This document shows, piece after piece, positions 21,714 through 28,386 of a DNA stretch of 64,000 bases; the first letter of the stretch is position 1, and each line of letters begins with the position of its first letter. The stretch comes from Acinetobacter piscicola (lineage in GTDB: Bacteria > Pseudomonadota > Gammaproteobacteria > Pseudomonadales > Moraxellaceae), in NCBI RefSeq assembly GCF_002233755.1, contig NZ_NIFO01000001.1:372001-436000 (forward strand), read 5' to 3'. Position numbers and translations under genes: made by a program. The notes under the pieces are model-generated. The model saw only the letters and a list, made by a program, of their open reading frames with translations, searched no databases and was not told the origin of the DNA.

Positions 21714-21748
21714 ATAAAGTGAGTATCAAACTTTGACACTCACTTTAT
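21714..21748 (-). terminator. terminator overlapping the 3' end of rtcA
   Basis: Long stem ATAAAGTGAGT / ACTCACTTTAT plus an inner TCAA/TTGA pair, with a T-rich tail on the minus strand. The stem includes the rtcA stop codon, so it probably ends the rtc operon. Confidence 0.6.
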
Positions 21749-22757
21749 AAATTTTATGGATTGGTTCAAAGTCAATTTCACAGTCTAAAAACTTTTGAAT
21801 CATATCGGCTTGAGTTTTTGTATGTTCACTGATGGCTGATGCGGTAAATTGCCCACCTTGACCTAAAGCTAAAGGCAATAAAAGTTGGTCTGCTAAGTAT
21901 TCATCCACCACAGCATCTATGGCCAAATAAGATTGAACATCTTTCGCTAAATCATGTGCCACTTTTTCAGCACTTTTCTTCATTTCACCTAATGCTGAAA
22001 ATACTTGCTGATGATGTTCATAATTTAAAACAACAAAAGCTGTATTCCCTTGACTAATTCCTTGAAAGTTCAGTCTTTTACGTTGTGTTAAGCTTAATTT
22101 GTTATTTAACACTTCAAGCTCACGATCTGCAATATTGGGTTGAATATTTAAAGCTGCTGCAAAAGCATTGATTTCAAGTAATTTGCCTTTATTCAAAACT
22201 GAAAATTTCTGCTTTTCTACCCATGGGTGAATGGTTACATTCACTTGACCTGCACCGATTGGAAAGAAGCCAGCTTGCTTGCATTCAAAATCAACCTGTA
22301 TCCCAAGCTGTTGAATTGTAGGTAGAAAGCAGTGTTCAATAAAATCAGCAGTCGGTGCCATAGGATTATGTGTACTACCGTGTATGGTGATTTGACTGGC
22401 TTCATTTTGCATCATCAAAACAGGCAGTAAGGTTTGTAGTACCAGTATTGTGCTACCCGCAGAACCGATTTGAAAATCATATTTTCCAGTTTGTACTTGT
22501 TGAGGTTGAAAATACAAACTTTGAGAATGCAATTCTGCACCTTGAACAATTGCATTACTTATCCGTTGAGACGCTTGGACGCAGACTAAATGCTGACGCA
22601 TTAAGCCCGGTTTTTTACGTCCTGCACGGATATTCACAAGTTCAAAAGGAATTCCTGTCAACATAGAAAGGGAAAGGGCAGTTCTTAAAATTTGTCCGCC
22701 GCCTTCGCCTTGTGAGCCATCAATTTGGATGGTTTTATTTTTTAGAGATGTATTCAT
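21726..22757 (-). CDS. rtcA: RNA 3'-terminal phosphate cyclase
   Basis: Uses ATP to turn RNA 3'-phosphate ends into 2',3'-cyclic phosphates, the ends that RtcB can ligate (343 residues). DGSQGEGGGQILRTALSLS and the nearby GRKKPGLMRQHL are the typical N-terminal motifs; the expected AMP-accepting histidine is His312 in SEHTKT; EYLADQLLLPLALG is also conserved. It is the last protein gene of the minus-strand rtc island, 250 bases after the DIP1984-family gene, and that gap is itself structured. The ribosome-binding site is AGAAGA before the ATG. Confidence 0.93.
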   Translation of the reverse strand: MNTSLKNKTIQIDGSQGEGGGQILRTALSLSMLTGIPFELVNIRAGRKKPGLMRQHLVCVQASQRISNAIVQGAELHSQSLYFQPQQVQTGKYDFQIGSAGSTILVLQTLLPVLMMQNEASQITIHGSTHNPMAPTADFIEHCFLPTIQQLGIQVDFECKQAGFFPIGAGQVNVTIHPWVEKQKFSVLNKGKLLEINAFAAALNIQPNIADRELEVLNNKLSLTQRKRLNFQGISQGNTAFVVLNYEHHQQVFSALGEMKKSAEKVAHDLAKDVQSYLAIDAVVDEYLADQLLLPLALGQGGQFTASAISEHTKTQADMIQKFLDCEIDFEPIHKIYKVSVKV

Positions 22758-23007: not shown

Positions 23008-23469
23008 TTAAACTTCAAGCAAATCTACTTGCCAGTTAGTGGCTTGAATTAACACATTTAAATCACGCAATTTGGCACTGATATCATCGGCTTGCTTTTG
23101 CAAGGATGAAACAGGAATGACTTTGCGCCATTTAATCTCACGTGAGCTATAACGATCAAGTTCACGATGTGTATTGCTAATGGCAGTCGTTAAAATTTTA
23201 TGTCGTTCTACTAGTTCATCTCGTTGAGTCAATAAAGCAAGTAATGAACGACCATCTGTAAGTTTCGCCAAAGCATTGGTTTGATGAATGGCATAAACCA
23301 GTTTTTGAGATTCCTGAGTTAAAGCAAAAACTTGTTTCAATAACTCATTTGGATCTTCCGATGGTTCATCACCTTCTTGTATCAATACATTTGCATTAAT
23401 ACGTTGTTTGAGTGAAGCGAGTTTTTTCTGTTGGTCGCTTCGGAGTAATAATGCTTCTGCGAGTTTCAT
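23008..23469 (-). CDS. DIP1984 family protein (septicolysin-like)
   Basis: Mostly helical protein of 153 residues with the DIP1984/septicolysin pattern: an N-terminal LAEALLLRSDQQKKLASL helix, DEPSEDPNELL, LTQRDELVERHK, and the conserved RYSSREIKWRKVIPVSSLQ. No signal peptide is present. The family function is unsettled. Its position inside an rtc island, between a tRNA-like RNA and rtcA, suggests a role in RNA handling, which is an inference from the context. The ribosome-binding site AAGGAT lies 8 bases before the ATG. Confidence 0.75.
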   Translation of the reverse strand: MKLAEALLLRSDQQKKLASLKQRINANVLIQEGDEPSEDPNELLKQVFALTQESQKLVYAIHQTNALAKLTDGRSLLALLTQRDELVERHKILTTAISNTHRELDRYSSREIKWRKVIPVSSLQKQADDISAKLRDLNVLIQATNWQVDLLEV

Positions 23470-23494: not shown

Positions 23495-23899
23495 TTAGTG
23501 AATATTTAACACAATGATTTGATATAGAGCCTGTCGGGGTAATGTATCGACTGGAATGGATTCCGCAAACTCTATAACTTCTTCTAAAGTTTGTTTTTCA
23601 TGCCAAGTGGTCATGAAGTTATAATCATCGTCATCAGGCAAGTCATAATTACAGAATTCTAAATAACTATAATCCAGTGCATCATCCCAAATTGAACACT
23701 CATGTCCCCATGCCATAGCCCAATAACATTGTTCAGATTTTACAATCCAATCACTGCATAGATTGCGCCAGTCATTACTTACATTGTTGTTATGTATTGC
23801 AATGACAACAATGTAAGGTTGCTGTGGTAATTCAAGAGTGATTTCTTGGTTCGATAATAGGTCATAATGCTGAACGACAACCTGTTTAGAATATTCCAT
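23495..23899 (-). CDS. acidic protein of unknown function in the rtc island
   Basis: I do not recognise this protein of 134 residues. It is acidic and aromatic, with many tryptophans (NDWRNLCSDWIVKSEQCYWAMAWGHECSIWDD) and a run LPDDDDYN. The layout of an N-terminal strand pair, IVVIAIHNN, and a C-terminal helix EEVIEFAESIP suggests a small alpha/beta domain. It has no signal peptide. It lies 90 bases after the tRNA-like RNA and 25 bases before the DIP1984-family gene, so it is likely co-transcribed with rtcB. Confidence 0.6.
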   Translation of the reverse strand: MEYSKQVVVQHYDLLSNQEITLELPQQPYIVVIAIHNNNVSNDWRNLCSDWIVKSEQCYWAMAWGHECSIWDDALDYSYLEFCNYDLPDDDDYNFMTTWHEKQTLEEVIEFAESIPVDTLPRQALYQIIVLNIH

Positions 23900-23989: not shown

Positions 23990-24222
23990 TGGTGGATATG
24001 ACGGGATTCGAACCCGCATCAACACGATAACCTCCGTTTTTAGTCGAGAGGTTGAGAAGCATCATTGGGAACGTGCGCCAGTCATAACCCTTACACAGAG
24101 CTACTCCCTGCAATCCGTAACCTTGCTGATGAACCCACTTTCCTATCATGCCTAGTTTTACCTAGACCGCCTTTTAGCTCAATCGTTTTAGGCGGTGTCG
24201 CTCCCTATATGACAGCATACCC
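23990..24222 (-). ncRNA. tRNA-like non-coding RNA next to rtcB (Y RNA/YrlA-like candidate)
   Basis: The ends fold like a tRNA: acceptor 5' strand GGGTATG (24222-24216) pairs with CATATCC (24000-23994), followed by A and an encoded CCA. A D arm TGTC-ATATAGGGAGC-GACA (24214-24196) keeps the GG of the D loop, and a T arm GCGGG-TTCGAAT-CCCGT (24017-24001) is perfect. Between D and T arms are about 178 nt, not the usual 25-45, with hairpins CCGCC/GGCGG (24195-24167), CTAG/CTAG and AACCTC/GAGGTT (24053-24029). It begins 8 bases after the rtcB stop codon. In Salmonella an rtcBA operon carries YrlA, a Y RNA with a tRNA-like domain, so a Y RNA relative is my first guess; an intron-bearing tRNA is the alternative. 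The small adjacent gap lacks any Ro (Rsr) gene. Confidence 0.7.
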
Positions 24223-24229
24223 TTTACAT

Positions 24230-25507
24230 TTACCCCTTCACACAAACTACCTGATTCAATGTATAAACCACTTCTACCAAATCACTTTGCGCTTTCATCA
24301 CATCTTCAATCGGTTTATAAGCAGAAGGGATCTCATCAATCACGGCTGCATCCTTACGGCATTCCACACCCTTGGTTTGTTCAATCTGATCTTCTACCGT
24401 AAACAACTTCTTGGCAGCAGTACGACTATATACACGACCAGCACCATGCGAACATGAACAGAAAGATTCCTGATTCCCTTTACCTTTGACAATAAAAGAC
24501 TTTGCACCCATCGAACCCGGAATGATCCCATACTCACCCAAACGAGCACGTACCGCACCTTTACGAGTAACCATGACTTCTTGTCCAAAATGCTCTTCTT
24601 TATCAACATAATTATGATGACAATTCACAGCTTCAACTTTGGCATTGAATGGTTTGTTGATGATGATGCGTAAAGCCTGAACAGCTGCTTCCATCATTAA
24701 CTCACGGTTTTTCATAGCAAAGCGCTGCGCCCAACCGACAGCAAACCAATAATCATCAAAATGTTCAGTACCCTCAACCAAATAAGCTAAATCTTTATCG
24801 GGCAGGTGAATGAAATGCTTTTGCATATCTTTACGGGCAAGCTCAATAAAGTGGTTACCAATCGCATTTCCAACACCACGAGAACCTGAATGCAGCATGA
24901 TCCACACTTGCTGATGTTCATCTAAGCAAACTTCAACAAAGTGATTTCCAGTTCCTAAAGTACCTAACTGTTTATGATTATTGGTATTTTTTAAACGAGG
25001 ATGCTTGGCACAAATATATTCAAAATCTGTCACCAATTCAGCCCAAACCTGATCTACACGTTCAGATGTATTTTCCCATGAACCACGGTCACGACGTCCT
25101 CGACCTTTCGTCATCCCATGTGGAATTAAACGTTCAAGCTCAGTACGTAACGCATGTAGATTATCAGGCAGATCAGATGCTGTAAGTGAGGTACGTGCTG
25201 CCATCATTCCACAACCAATATCTACACCAACAGCAGCAGGAATAATCGCGCCTTTGGTTGGAATCACACTTCCAATGGTTGCACCGATACCAACATGGAC
25301 ATCTGGCATCACTGCCATCCATTTATAAATAAACGGCATTTGTGCTGTTTTTAACAGTTGATCTTTCGACTTCTCATCGACAGGGACACCTTTTGTCCAC
25401 ATTTTGATTGGAACACCTTTTTCGTCCTGAATAATGTTATAAGCGCGTTCCTGATTTTGTGAAGAACTTGCTTGTTTTTCAATTTTTTCTGCTACAGAAA
25501 TTGTCAT
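24230..25507 (-). CDS. rtcB: RNA-splicing ligase RtcB
   Basis: GTP- and Mn-dependent ligase that joins 2',3'-cyclic phosphate (or 3'-phosphate) to 5'-OH RNA ends (425 residues). Metal and nucleotide motifs are GVDIGCGM, GTGNHFVEV, LHSGSRGVGN, GSMGAKSFIVKG, and CSCSHGAGRVYSR, whose histidine takes the GMP. I chose ATG 25507, which has a GAGGAT ribosome-binding site, rather than longer forms that start at 25582, near the expected transcription start. It is preceded by a leader hairpin and a sigma-54 promoter and followed at once by the tRNA-like RNA. Confidence 0.95.
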   Translation of the reverse strand: MTISVAEKIEKQASSSQNQERAYNIIQDEKGVPIKMWTKGVPVDEKSKDQLLKTAQMPFIYKWMAVMPDVHVGIGATIGSVIPTKGAIIPAAVGVDIGCGMMAARTSLTASDLPDNLHALRTELERLIPHGMTKGRGRRDRGSWENTSERVDQVWAELVTDFEYICAKHPRLKNTNNHKQLGTLGTGNHFVEVCLDEHQQVWIMLHSGSRGVGNAIGNHFIELARKDMQKHFIHLPDKDLAYLVEGTEHFDDYWFAVGWAQRFAMKNRELMMEAAVQALRIIINKPFNAKVEAVNCHHNYVDKEEHFGQEVMVTRKGAVRARLGEYGIIPGSMGAKSFIVKGKGNQESFCSCSHGAGRVYSRTAAKKLFTVEDQIEQTKGVECRKDAAVIDEIPSAYKPIEDVMKAQSDLVEVVYTLNQVVCVKG

Positions 25508-25526
25508 TGCTTTTATCCTCTTCAAA

Positions 25527-25555
25527 ACCTGCCTGCCAAGCGGTTGCAGACAGGT
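25527..25555 (-). promoter_or_regulatory. 10-bp hairpin in the rtcB leader
   Basis: On the minus strand ACCTGTCTGC pairs with GCAGGCAGGT (one G-U pair) around the 9-base loop AACCGCTTG. It lies between the predicted transcription start (about 25583) and the ribosome-binding site at 25521-25516, so it is in the 5' leader of the rtcB message. There is no T run, so it is not a terminator. Confidence 0.6.
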
Positions 25556-25593
25556 GATATAGCGATACATCTTATGATGCATGTATTGTATAT

Positions 25594-25712: not shown

Positions 25713-26318
25713 TTATATATCTTTAAATATATCTAAATATAAATTTTTATATCTACTAAATCCTATATCTAAGGCGTATTTTCCACCTGTAATGATGAGA
25801 TAATAATTAATCTCGCCATTAGGGAAATCCAGTTTGCTAAAGTACATGGGATGATCTGGAAATTGATAGTCGTAGCACTGTGCAATGTAATCGAGTATTC
25901 GGAATGTTAGGAAACTCCTTTTGTCATCTAAGTTTTGAGTTGGTAAGCGGGTATTAAGTAATAAAAATAAAGGAAATATTTTACTTTCAAGTTCACCAAG
26001 TGAAATTTGCTTTGCAGTAAATTTATGTTCTTTGAAAAAATGATAATGTTTAAAAAAATTACTTTCTAAATCTAAATTCTCATCATATTTGATGTAGTCA
26101 GCTGTAATTAAAAACTCCCTGATTTGCCCATCAGTTTCAGAAATACCTTCTAAATATCCTGCAAGATGACGAACTTCTCTTTTATTTAATTTCATAATGT
26201 CACATATTTTTTGAGAATCCATATAGTAAATATGGATTCTATAGACGAATTTTAGATAAAACGACTGAATGAATTTTTTCCAGAAACGCTTACTGAATAT
26301 CCCACACAGTATTTTCAT
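25713..26318 (-). CDS. hypothetical protein upstream of rtcB
   Basis: I do not recognise this protein (201 residues from ATG 26318). It has a basic and aromatic N-terminus (FSKRFWKKFIQSFYLKFVYRIHIYY) and a body with KREVRHLAGYLEG, SKIFPLFLLLNTRLPTQ and a C-terminal part rich in Tyr and Phe. No catalytic motif is seen. A GAGGAG box at 26335-26340 is rather far from the ATG. A second possible start is ATG 26222. The 5' end overlaps the end of the bS21-like gene, so the two are probably co-transcribed. The gene ends about 100 bases before the rtcB promoter. Confidence 0.5.
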   Translation of the reverse strand: MKILCGIFSKRFWKKFIQSFYLKFVYRIHIYYMDSQKICDIMKLNKREVRHLAGYLEGISETDGQIREFLITADYIKYDENLDLESNFFKHYHFFKEHKFTAKQISLGELESKIFPLFLLLNTRLPTQNLDDKRSFLTFRILDYIAQCYDYQFPDHPMYFSKLDFPNGEINYYLIITGGKYALDIGFSRYKNLYLDIFKDI

Positions 26319-26565
26319 CAGTGTGTTGATAATGCTCCTCAATATGGATTTTCAGCCTAATTGCAAGAGGATCATCTTTCAATATTTGGCTATGACCCAT
26401 CAAAAGTTTCTTTTCGGTCTTTTTACGATTTTTACTGGGTGGCTTTTCATGATAATTTTGGCATTTTTTATACCAATGATTTGTTTGCAGGTAGTATTTT
26501 TTGATTCTTAATTGCTCTAGGGCAAGATCAATATTGTCGTTTTGAACAATAACTTGTATAGACAT
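26290..26565 (-). CDS. bS21-like small protein (divergent ribosomal protein S21 paralogue)
   Basis: Small basic protein of 91 residues. Its first 55 residues align with ribosomal protein bS21 with one gap: a VIVQNDNIDLALEQLR start matches the bS21 pattern V-x-x-x-E-P-D-V-A-L-R-R-F, and YHEKPPSKNRKK matches the FYEKPTxERKRKK segment at the right distance. About 30 residues follow that bS21 lacks (LAIRLKIHIEEHYQHTDEN). The bS21 identification is my own comparison from memory and not a search result. GTG 26589 is another possible start; neither has a clear ribosome-binding site. It lies between rtcR and the rtcB promoter, on the same strand as rtcB. Confidence 0.55.
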   Translation of the reverse strand: MSIQVIVQNDNIDLALEQLRIKKYYLQTNHWYKKCQNYHEKPPSKNRKKTEKKLLMGHSQILKDDPLAIRLKIHIEEHYQHTDENTVWDIQ

Positions 26566-26778
26566 GATTTGCGTTTTAAAGACTGACACCTGTCTATGGT
26601 TTTGAGTTGAAGTGTTAAATTAGCAAAAGTGATGAAAAGATACAAGAATCTTGTCTATGGTTAAAATGATTAATCAGAGGATCAAACAATATCGGATCAC
26701 CACAAAGACTAAATTTAAATGTTTTATGATAAAAATCTAGATATGATGGTTATGAAAATATAAAATTTTATAGAAAGT

Positions 26779-28386
26779 ATGCAAAATACCAAAAAAACAG
26801 TCGTTATAGGTTTTGTGGGTTCAACCTTAGATCAAGGCAAAAAGCCTGAGCGTTGGCAACGTTGGCGTCCGACTATGAGCTTACTCATGCATGAAGACCT
26901 CATTGTTGACGAGTTGGTATTATTGCACGATCGCCGTAATGCAGGTTTAGTTGAGCATTTACAGCGAGATGCTTTACAGCTTTCTCCACAAACGCAGGTG
27001 ACAGGTCATAAAGTCAATATTCGAGATCCGTGGGATTTTTCGGATATGTATGGTGCATTGTATGACTTCGTAAAGTCATATCCGTTTGATATTGAAAATA
27101 ATCATTATCTATTGCATATCACCACTGGAACACATGTAGCACAAATCTGTTGGTATTTACTGATAGATGCTCATTATCTTCCTGCAAAACTCATTCAAAG
27201 CTCACCAACAGGTAAACAACAGCCTGAAGGTGAATATCGGATTATCGATTTAGATTTATCTCGTTATGCAGCTTTAACACAGCGTTTTGAGCATGAGCAG
27301 TCGGAAAATTGGTTACAGCTTAAAGCCAATATTGCGACAAAAAATAAAAGCTTTAATCAACTCATTCAAGAGGTTGAATTGGTCGCAACACGTTCGAGTG
27401 CGCCAATTCTAATCATGGGGGCGACAGGTGTAGGAAAATCACACCTAGCCAAACAGATTTATCAGCTTAAAAAAGAAAAGTTTCATTTATCAGGACGTTT
27501 CATCGATGTGAACTGCGCTACTTTAATCGGTGATAGTGCCATGTCGACATTATTTGGACACAGCAAAGGTGCTTTTACAGGAGCGATTGCAGCACGGACA
27601 GGTTATTTAAAAAGTGCAGATAACGGTATTTTATTCCTCGATGAAATTGGTGAATTGGGACTTGATGAGCAAGCGATGCTGCTGAAAGCACTTGAAGATA
27701 AATCTTTTTTCCCAGTGGGTAGTGACAAGGAAATTCAGGCTGATTTTCAACTGATTGCAGGGACAAATAAAGATTTACGTGAAGAAGTTCAGGCAGGGCG
27801 CTTCCGTGAGGATTTGTGGGCACGACTCAATACTTGGACATTCTTTTTACCCAGTTTAAAAGACCGTTTAGAGGATATTGCACCTAATATAGAATTTGAA
27901 TTACAACGTTTTGCCAATCAACATCAACGTCAATTACGTTTTCATAGCGATGCCTTGCAGAAATATTTAAAATTTGCACAGTCTTATGAAGCGACTTGGC
28001 AAGGTAATTTTCGTGATTTAACCGCTAGCGTAACTCGAATGGCGACTTTAGCGAATGGTGAGCGGATTGGCTTAAATGAAGTGAGTGCTGAAATCAATCG
28101 CTTACAAAAGATTTGGAATATTGAGCAGCATGCATCTTCAACGTTATTTTCAAATCTTGATCAAATACTAAGTGCCGAACAAATTGCACAGATTGATGAA
28201 TTTGATCGTATTCAGCTTGAAGGTGTCATTGAAATTTGCCGTAAATCGAAGTCTATGGCAGATGCAGGACGTCGTCTATTCTCGGTCTCTCGTGAGCAAC
28301 GGCAAAGTACGAATGATAGTGATCGAGTTAAAAAATATTTGGCAAAATTTTCTTTAAATTGGGATGATGTTAGTCGGAAGTTTTAA
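26779..28386 (+). CDS. rtcR: sigma-54 activator of RNA repair, RtcR
   Basis: Transcription activator of 535 residues. Residues about 1-175 are the RtcR-type CARF sensor domain (VIGFVGSTLDQGKKPERWQRWRP at the start, HITTGTHVAQICWYLL). The AAA+ domain follows with Walker A GATGVGKSHLAK, the sigma-54 contact loop GAFTGA, and Walker B ILFLDEIGEL. The C-terminus (ADAGRRLFSVSREQRQSTN) is the DNA-binding helix-turn-helix region. In Salmonella RtcR responds to tRNA fragments. The rtcB operon with its -24/-12 promoter is on the opposite strand. The gene ends 7 bases before the convergent patatin gene. Confidence 0.93.
   Translation: MQNTKKTVVIGFVGSTLDQGKKPERWQRWRPTMSLLMHEDLIVDELVLLHDRRNAGLVEHLQRDALQLSPQTQVTGHKVNIRDPWDFSDMYGALYDFVKSYPFDIENNHYLLHITTGTHVAQICWYLLIDAHYLPAKLIQSSPTGKQQPEGEYRIIDLDLSRYAALTQRFEHEQSENWLQLKANIATKNKSFNQLIQEVELVATRSSAPILIMGATGVGKSHLAKQIYQLKKEKFHLSGRFIDVNCATLIGDSAMSTLFGHSKGAFTGAIAARTGYLKSADNGILFLDEIGELGLDEQAMLLKALEDKSFFPVGSDKEIQADFQLIAGTNKDLREEVQAGRFREDLWARLNTWTFFLPSLKDRLEDIAPNIEFELQRFANQHQRQLRFHSDALQKYLKFAQSYEATWQGNFRDLTASVTRMATLANGERIGLNEVSAEINRLQKIWNIEQHASSTLFSNLDQILSAEQIAQIDEFDRIQLEGVIEICRKSKSMADAGRRLFSVSREQRQSTNDSDRVKKYLAKFSLNWDDVSRKF

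Follow-up and report, generated by a model that had tools for sequence, protein, structure and literature searches.

The bacterial RNAs that mimic transfer RNA (tRNA) include transfer-messenger RNA (tmRNA; SsrA, RF00023) and the Y RNA YrlA (RF02553). It has been reported that the third acceptor pair of tmRNA is completely conserved as G-U, a potent identity element for alanyl-tRNA synthetase (AlaRS), and that recognition by this enzyme depends largely on the acceptor stem (PMC3985003). In YrlA, the 5' and 3' ends are described as lying in a long stem that holds the Ro site, with the tRNA-like domain between them (PMC8394870), and Hughes et al. suggested that this domain is a competitive inhibitor of an anticodon nuclease. 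In this work, we analyzed an RNA of 233 nt encoded on the minus strand, 3' of the RNA ligase gene rtcB, in a 64,000-nt stretch of Acinetobacter piscicola contig NZ_NIFO01000001.1 (positions 372,001 to 436,000; hereafter, the window). As judged from comparison with its relatives, the RNA almost certainly belongs to a real conserved family of tRNA-like RNAs, which is found mostly in RNA-repair loci, and the acceptor stem predicts that it is probably charged with alanine.

The first-pass annotation of the window had described a tRNA-shaped RNA placed 8 bases after rtcB, with a 7-bp acceptor stem, a D arm, a T arm, an encoded CCA and about 178 nt between the two arms. All of these parts are present on the minus strand (Table 1), and 179 nt were counted between the D and T arms. 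The RNA is indeed adjacent to rtcB, but the gap after the rtcB stop is 7 bases, not 8. Approximately 175 nt of other structure stand in for the anticodon arm. Hairpins A and B are located between the D stem and helix P, which bears the conserved folded inner domain and ends 4 nt before the T arm, at the place where the anticodon stem of a tRNA would end. In all 18 intact close members, the UAA in the loop of hairpin U occupies positions -51 to -53, counted from the 3' end. Within inner domain Q, the terminal hairpin S has a 5-bp stem and a loop of mostly 7 nt, the second base of which is G in 14 of 15 members. ARAGORN called no tRNA or tmRNA in the whole window; in place of a cloverleaf with an anticodon arm, the RNA has helices A, B, P, Q, S and U. 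Likewise, Rfam at its curated thresholds gave no match in the whole window, including the Y RNA, tRNA and tmRNA families to which the first-pass annotation had pointed, and Rfam 15 holds no family that matches at its cut-off. The RNA family appears to be new: no earlier description was found in the literature covered, although an earlier mention is possible, since this coverage did not extend to central papers on Y RNAs of bacteria and on the genomics of RNA repair.

When the RNA is compared with the described systems, it shares with tmRNA the G3:U70 acceptor, the CCA end, the T arm with, directly ahead of it, a helix that closes an extra domain, and a UAA hairpin loop (the stop codon of tmRNA is located in its helix 5), whereas it has a D-arm stem and no conserved tag frame, and is encoded apart from the ordinary tmRNA of the genome. 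The tmRNA model, the best of the weak matches of relevance, scored 17.4 bits with the window RNA, in a match running through the acceptor and T arm, and 20.1 bits with a copy from an Eleftheria terrae plasmid, both below the 47-bit cut-off. With tRNA-Ala it has G3:U70, A73, CCA and the D and T arms in common, but not the anticodon arm. Like YrlA, it has a tRNA-like domain and occurs in loci of the RtcR/Ro/RtcB type. In contrast, YrlA is 90-150 nt long and, as seen in the Rfam alignments, circularly permuted, ending in the Ro-binding stem with the T arm preceding the D arm, while the RNA described here has a free acceptor end. The gene neighbourhood is that of the RtcR-controlled rtcBA and rsr-yrlBA-rtcBA operons, to which the RNA is an extra component that is also found with a T4-type kinase-ligase set and in phage and megaplasmid tRNA arrays.

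That the element is a structured non-coding RNA, as first proposed from the sequence, was borne out by compensatory changes across related genomes, which were far above those in shuffled and slid controls. Single-sequence folding was modestly above chance (z -2.2; 5 of 200 shuffles were equally good). In a MAFFT alignment of 15 members, scored with its own RNAalifold consensus but not itself fitted to a structure, 91.5% of the cells were paired and two-sided changes were found in 33 of 62 pairs (101 cells), compared with shuffle means of 15.9 pairs and 26.6 cells, and with 19 pairs and 31 cells in the best slid control. In the model alignment of 19 members, which was fitted to the structure, two-sided changes were found in 38 of the 62 pairs (172 cells), compared with shuffle means of 22.5 pairs and 46.3 cells, and with 24 pairs and 47 cells in the best slid control. 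The best-supported helices are the acceptor, the D stem (96.5% of cells paired in the 19 members), hairpins A, B and U, and helix P. The inner helices 8-11, which show little variation or are broken in some members, are less certain. A pseudoknot between the hairpin-A loop and a conserved CCAAU strand was rejected, with only 54.9% of cells paired and some slid versions equal to it.

The first relative, the Eleftheria terrae plasmid copy, was found by blastn (67% over 220 nt) and ends 21 nt before an RtcB gene; it was the one nearly full-length match among the matches listed in phage and plasmid records, the others listed covering 11-18% of the query. Of these shorter matches, those in six Vibrio phage records and on the Pseudomonas FeN3W and P. 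silesiensis plasmids proved to be the ends of more distant relatives. A covariance model from two sequences (R1) detected three Psychrobacter copies among 80 RtcB loci. Beyond the window's own copy, it detected three copies in 274 genomes of the class (in genomes G418, G414 and G207) and ten in 348 genomes of the family, three of which were the Psychrobacter copies. In the class search, 193 of the 274 genomes gave matches at E <= 0.01, and the next best score after the four copies kept was 35.8 bits. Of the 26 next loci (L156-L181), 25 have a tRNA or tmRNA called by ARAGORN at the matching position, the exception being L166, where the match is at a contig end, and the scores with a second model, R2, built from 15 members, were at most 32.7 bits. 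R2 added copies in G727 (349 genomes of the phylum), G1100 and G1250 (390 genomes of the order), and returned known copies only in the orders of G414 (20 genomes) and G418 (3 genomes). In the large searches, only a handful of candidates were scored for each genome (5 or 6 with R2), and the carrier counts are thus lower bounds. Four pattern scans of viral contigs yielded 33 stretches, of which 6 were checked by eye, 16 with R1 and 11 with R2; one was a true member, in the virus-flagged contig L151. Matches in G1196 (41.1 bits) and at L182:1020 were rejected as tRNA-Trp and tRNA-Gly, respectively. Including the window RNA, this gave 19 close members from 17 genomes, one plasmid and one viral contig, with lengths of 211-275 nt and R2 scores of 126.7-248.3 bits, 15 of the members having built the model. 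The copy in L236, with a broken T arm and a mismatch at 2:71, is degenerate; it was counted in the 19 and left out of alignment A6.

All 19 close members have a G-U pair at 3:70 of the acceptor, together with A73 and CCA, and this pair stays fixed while acceptor pairs 4, 5 and 6 vary with compensation. The same combination was found in all three distant relatives from Pseudomonas plasmids. As a control, G3:U70 with A73 was found in 6 of 6 tRNA-Ala and in 1 of 140 other tRNAs, in a set of 146 distinct ARAGORN tRNAs from 267 loci that were partly fetched for similarity to this RNA. Given the invariant alanine pair, charging may be argued to matter for the bacterial and plasmid forms.

RNA-repair genes are found near almost all close members. 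For 18 of the 19, the stretch that was fetched encodes RtcB, a T4-type kinase-ligase or Ro, in agreement with the initial suggestion that a tRNA-shaped RNA is tied to RNA-repair loci. RtcB is found in 14 of the 19 (window, L142, L182, L183, L228, L229, L232-L237, L242 and L266), although in L182 it is 3.1 kb from the RNA; five loci (L151, L227, L230, L231 and L267) have no rtcB match. In three of these five, L227, L230 and L231, the RNA occurs with RtcR and a kinase-ligase, a phosphatase-like gene and a third gene, which is an RtcR-linked repair set without RtcB. The PF09511 ligase was tested in L231, and the ligases of L227 and L230 were assigned by 74% identity. The L231 set (L231:9946-13054), for example, comprises RtcR, a T4-type RNA ligase in which a kinase-like motif was recognized by eye at the N-terminus, a gene resembling metallophosphatases and a third one with no Pfam match. 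L151 has Ro and RtcR without RtcB, and the RNA lies between rtcR and Ro. Ro is also found in L183, L233 and L234, thus in 4 of the 19.

Table 1. Positions of the tRNA-like RNA, its parts and the neighbouring genes in the window, and of distant relatives and tRNA arrays at other loci (L numbers)
Feature	Position	Strand	Basis or remark
tRNA-like RNA, 233 nt	23990..24222	-	18 close relatives; covariation; R2 score 223.4 bits (own sequence among the 15 of R2)
Acceptor stem, 5' strand (7 bp; G3 pairs with U70)	24216..24222	-	3:70 is G-U in 19/19 close members
D arm, 3 bp drawn (possible fourth pair by eye), GGG in loop	24197..24213	-	two-sided changes in 3/3 pairs
Hairpin A, 5 bp, large loop with A-rich start	24167..24195	-	two-sided changes in 4/5 pairs
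Hairpin B, 4 bp, GUAANA-like loop	24152..24165	-	two-sided changes in 3/4 pairs
Helix P, 5' strand, 8 bp	24144..24151	-	two-sided changes in 8/8 pairs
Inner domain Q	24053..24137	-	consensus fold and covariation; helices 8-11 less certain
Terminal hairpin S, within domain Q	24087-24102	-	
Hairpin U, UAA in loop	24030..24052	-	two-sided changes in 5/7 pairs
Helix P, 3' strand	24022..24029	-	followed by 4 nt (24018-24021), then T arm
T arm, 5 bp and UUCGAAU loop (standard)	24001..24017	-	alignment of 19
Acceptor stem, 3' strand (24000-23994), and ACCA (23993-23990)	23990..24000	-	ACCA in 19/19
rtcB (RNA ligase), immediately upstream of RNA	24230..25582	-	PF01139, E 2.8e-131
rtcR, divergent sigma-54 activator	26779..28386	+	PF06956; PADLOC RtcR model
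rtcA (RNA cyclase)	21726..22757	-	PF01137
DUF7684 gene, between RNA and rtcA	23495..23899	-	PF24733
DUF6847 gene	23008..23469	-	PF20935
Two reading frames between rtcR and rtcB	25713-26342, 26290-26589	-	without Pfam or PADLOC match
Distant relative, Pseudomonas sp. FeN3W plasmid	L144:2792-3027		R2 41.3 bits; end of tRNA gene row
Distant relative, P. silesiensis plasmid	L269:373-611		among tRNA genes
Distant relative, Pseudomonas sp. Leaf58 plasmid	L270:319-562		among tRNA genes
Distant relative, Vibrio phage Va1, 177 nt	L145:2853-3029		R2 51.8 bits; end of tRNA gene row
Distant relative, Vibrio phage, 177-nt form	L268:1353-1529		tRNA genes nearby
tRNA arrays near the RNA	L182:940-4317; L242:5665-6833; L266:5782-7354; L267:8984-9339		

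A second setting of the RNA is the tRNA array. Besides the close members, five distant sequences, from three Pseudomonas plasmids and from Vibrio phages, show the same order of acceptor, D arm, hairpin A, hairpin B with the GUAA motif, a long domain, a hairpin in the place of U, T arm and ACCA; the hairpin order was read by eye in the phage form and from a joint fold of the three plasmid sequences. The phage form occurs in six Vibrio phage records, two of which were inspected (L145 and L268), and ARAGORN calls neither the L144 nor the L145 element. The five sequences score 41.3-53.2 bits with R2, compared with 41.1 bits for the best tRNA; since these scores alone do not separate the distant forms from tRNA, their acceptance rests on architecture, and they were excluded from the covariation counts. 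A match on a P. amygdali plasmid (L143) was rejected as an ordinary tRNA-Asp. In the Vibrio phage Va1 array, a YrlA-like match was also observed at L145:172-242, below threshold (34.8 bits; cut-off 69).

Genes for tRNAs are found near all five distant sequences and near 4 of the 19 close members (L182, L242, L266 and L267). In these four loci, 28 tRNA genes lie within approximately 3 kb of the RNA, and none is for alanine; this lack means little, since the array on the L144 plasmid contains two tRNA-Ala. L182, L242 and L266 also carry HNH-type and slipin genes (Band_7 was tested in L182, the others were recognized by eye), L266 carries a CCA-adding-enzyme-like gene, and L242 carries a PrfH-like gene, recognized by eye, as well as a second RtcB-like gene (27% identity). 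In Anabaena, a single regulator has been reported to repress a tRNA operon together with rtcB, HNH genes and a slipin gene, which are released from repression under translation stress (PMC10272220). Three tRNA-Leu in L182 are just 78-79 nt long, without a long variable arm.

The distribution of the RNA suggests mobility. RtcB matches of at least 80% identity and near full length were found in 50 of 175 genomes of the genus, and the window RtcB is 93-95% identical to those in five named Acinetobacter records, while the RNA was found only in the window's genome. An apparent deletion remnant of the RNA is present directly 3' of rtcB in A. calcoaceticus JUb89 (L040:6333-6380). At L229:9824-9925, part of the rtcB 3' end (approximately the last 109 nt, with 85% identity to the main copy) occurs a second time and stops 14 nt short of the RNA, which suggests that cargo entered by recombination at the end of rtcB. 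Furthermore, the slot after rtcB is hypervariable: 74 of the 80 RtcB loci (L032-L111) have a reading frame there, and these first frames fall into 29 clusters, so that the slot looks like a cargo site for small proteins. Taken together, the patchy presence, the remnant, the partial rtcB copy and the variable slot make it seem that the RNA travels as cargo after rtcB and is gained and lost. In a deltaproteobacterial metagenome-assembled genome, an ordinary tRNA-Pro gene lies a few nucleotides after rtcB (L108:5789-5864).

Several explanations of the RNA have to be considered. A Y RNA relative, as the first-pass annotation had proposed, would tether Ro (Rsr) to an effector, and the tRNA-like domain, the operon type, the presence of Ro near four members, and the position of the RNA between rtcR and Ro in L151, where no YrlA was found, are in its favour. 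However, the topology is different, the ends forming an acceptor stem with CCA and not a long paired Ro stem, and neither the window RNA nor the Eleftheria copy matched RF02553, even at E values up to 10. At three loci, L183, L233 and L234, sequences matching YrlA are situated between the Ro and RtcB genes, separate from the RNA, with one match above the cut-off in each; in two of these loci (L183:7962-8810 and L233:12385-13282) rows of several YrlA-like RNAs are seen, the others being weaker. No Ro match was found in the fetched stretches of the other 15 members (three of which are at contig ends), and the window's whole genome is without TROVE (PF05731), extending the earlier remark that no Ro gene is nearby; a 45-bit YrlA match in this genome is due to chance, as it falls on a row of tRNA-Lys genes. 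A YrlA variant is thus disfavoured, with a slim chance of being correct. An intron-bearing tRNA, the halves of which RtcB would join, had also been proposed, and could explain why a sequence with the ends of a tRNA and a long insert is found next to an RNA ligase gene. Since hairpins A and B precede helix P, no single excision restores an anticodon arm; in addition, the insert behaves as a domain in both folding and covariation, group I introns gave no match at E up to 10, and other copies of the RNA accompany a different type of ligase or, in L267, no ligase. We regard this explanation as scarcely credible.

It is also improbable that the fold is just a cis-acting element that recruits RNase P and tRNA 3' processing to part the rtcB mRNA from downstream genes. 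The close spacing would fit, as the RNA follows the rtcB stop by 7 nt in the window and by 9 nt in L233, and in L242 the predicted start of rtcA comes 8 nt after it, but the position is not fixed: the RNA precedes rtcB in L142, L183 and L237, and five loci have no rtcB match. The conserved inner domain and G3:U70 would also be left unexplained. The main rival, which we hold to be less likely than not, is that the RNA mimics tRNA-Ala or tmRNA as a decoy or sentinel, which is cut by tRNA-damaging nucleases instead of real tRNAs. The 5' fragment with a 2',3'-cyclic phosphate could then feed RtcR, and RtcB or another ligase could reset the RNA. RtcR, which is encoded near 12 of the 19 members, binds 5' tRNA fragments with such an end, the proposal of Hughes et al. 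for YrlA is of the same kind, and occurrence with ligases of two families would be expected of an RNA serving a system rather than one enzyme. The phage form without G-U and the link to phage and megaplasmid tRNA arrays keep this explanation in contention. In contrast, the RNA has no anticodon loop, the second loop base of hairpin S being G and not the U33 of tRNA anticodon loops, and a decoy for an anticodon nuclease would not need an invariant alanine pair.

A chargeable mimic found in repair loci and mobile tRNA arrays, with arms unable to read codons, would best fit a role on stalled or damaged translation. We propose that damage to tRNAs or ribosomes leads to transcription of the RNA together with the repair operon under RtcR control, and that RNase P and tRNA 3' processing would release it from the transcript. 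It would then be charged with alanine by AlaRS, for which the acceptor stem matters and not an anticodon. With less certainty, the charged RNA might act on ribosomes stalled by RNA damage in a manner resembling that of tmRNA, the folded arm replacing the codon; this ribosome step is tentative, and so is the whole chain from an alanine-type RNA of repair loci through charging to ribosome action, which we hold to be plausible at somewhat less than an even chance. It has been reported that tmRNA was the most frequent target in an RtcB ligation assay with E. coli RNA (PMC9650030). In A. baumannii treated with tigecycline, rtcB and the gene directly downstream were up-regulated 252-fold, rtcB being among the two most induced genes (PMC7652931), and under minocycline rtcB was up-regulated 2.6-fold (PMC9741440).

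Several observations do not sit easily with this proposal. The phage form has A-U at 3:70 (neither of the two phage sequences has G3:U70), and therefore alanine identity does not hold throughout the wider family. In the 16 members read, the UAA of hairpin U does not close a conserved tag frame, and in one of them the codon directly before this UAA is a stop; a tmRNA with a short tag was rejected, as the in-frame peptides upstream of the UAA share nothing. Any rescue would therefore differ from that by tmRNA. An ordinary, tag-bearing tmRNA is already encoded in the genome, and the D arm has a stem, unlike that of tmRNA, which makes SmpB binding doubtful. The distribution is patchy, the window's genome being the sole carrier of its genus among the 348 family genomes searched. 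Nothing in the 18 kb of L267 matches RtcB, RtcA, RtcR, Ro or the ligase set, and the short stretches around the five distant sequences gave no such match either. RtcR was seen with only 12 of the 19 close members, although the contig ends at three of the loci (L182, L232 and L237). A simple scan between rtcR and rtcB revealed no convincing sigma-54 promoter. Sigma-70 promoters and intrinsic terminators were predicted about as often as in shuffled sequences.

The purpose of RNA-repair operons is unsettled, and a conserved, apparently chargeable tRNA mimic in their loci ties RNA repair directly to translation. We know of no other structured RNA family that is common to RtcB-type loci, T4-type ligase loci and phage or plasmid tRNA arrays. 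The RNA, missed here by both Rfam and ARAGORN, provides a small and testable handle on these operons. It could possibly be, although we advance this with considerable reserve, a third kind of bacterial tRNA mimic beside tmRNA and Y RNA, which would be alanylated, induced by damage and able to enter stalled ribosomes, a folded arm taking over from codon reading and no tag frame being used, and which would be common to repair loci with unrelated ligases and to the tRNA arrays of phages and megaplasmids. The findings hint that the RNA may help cells in which the translation machinery has been damaged.
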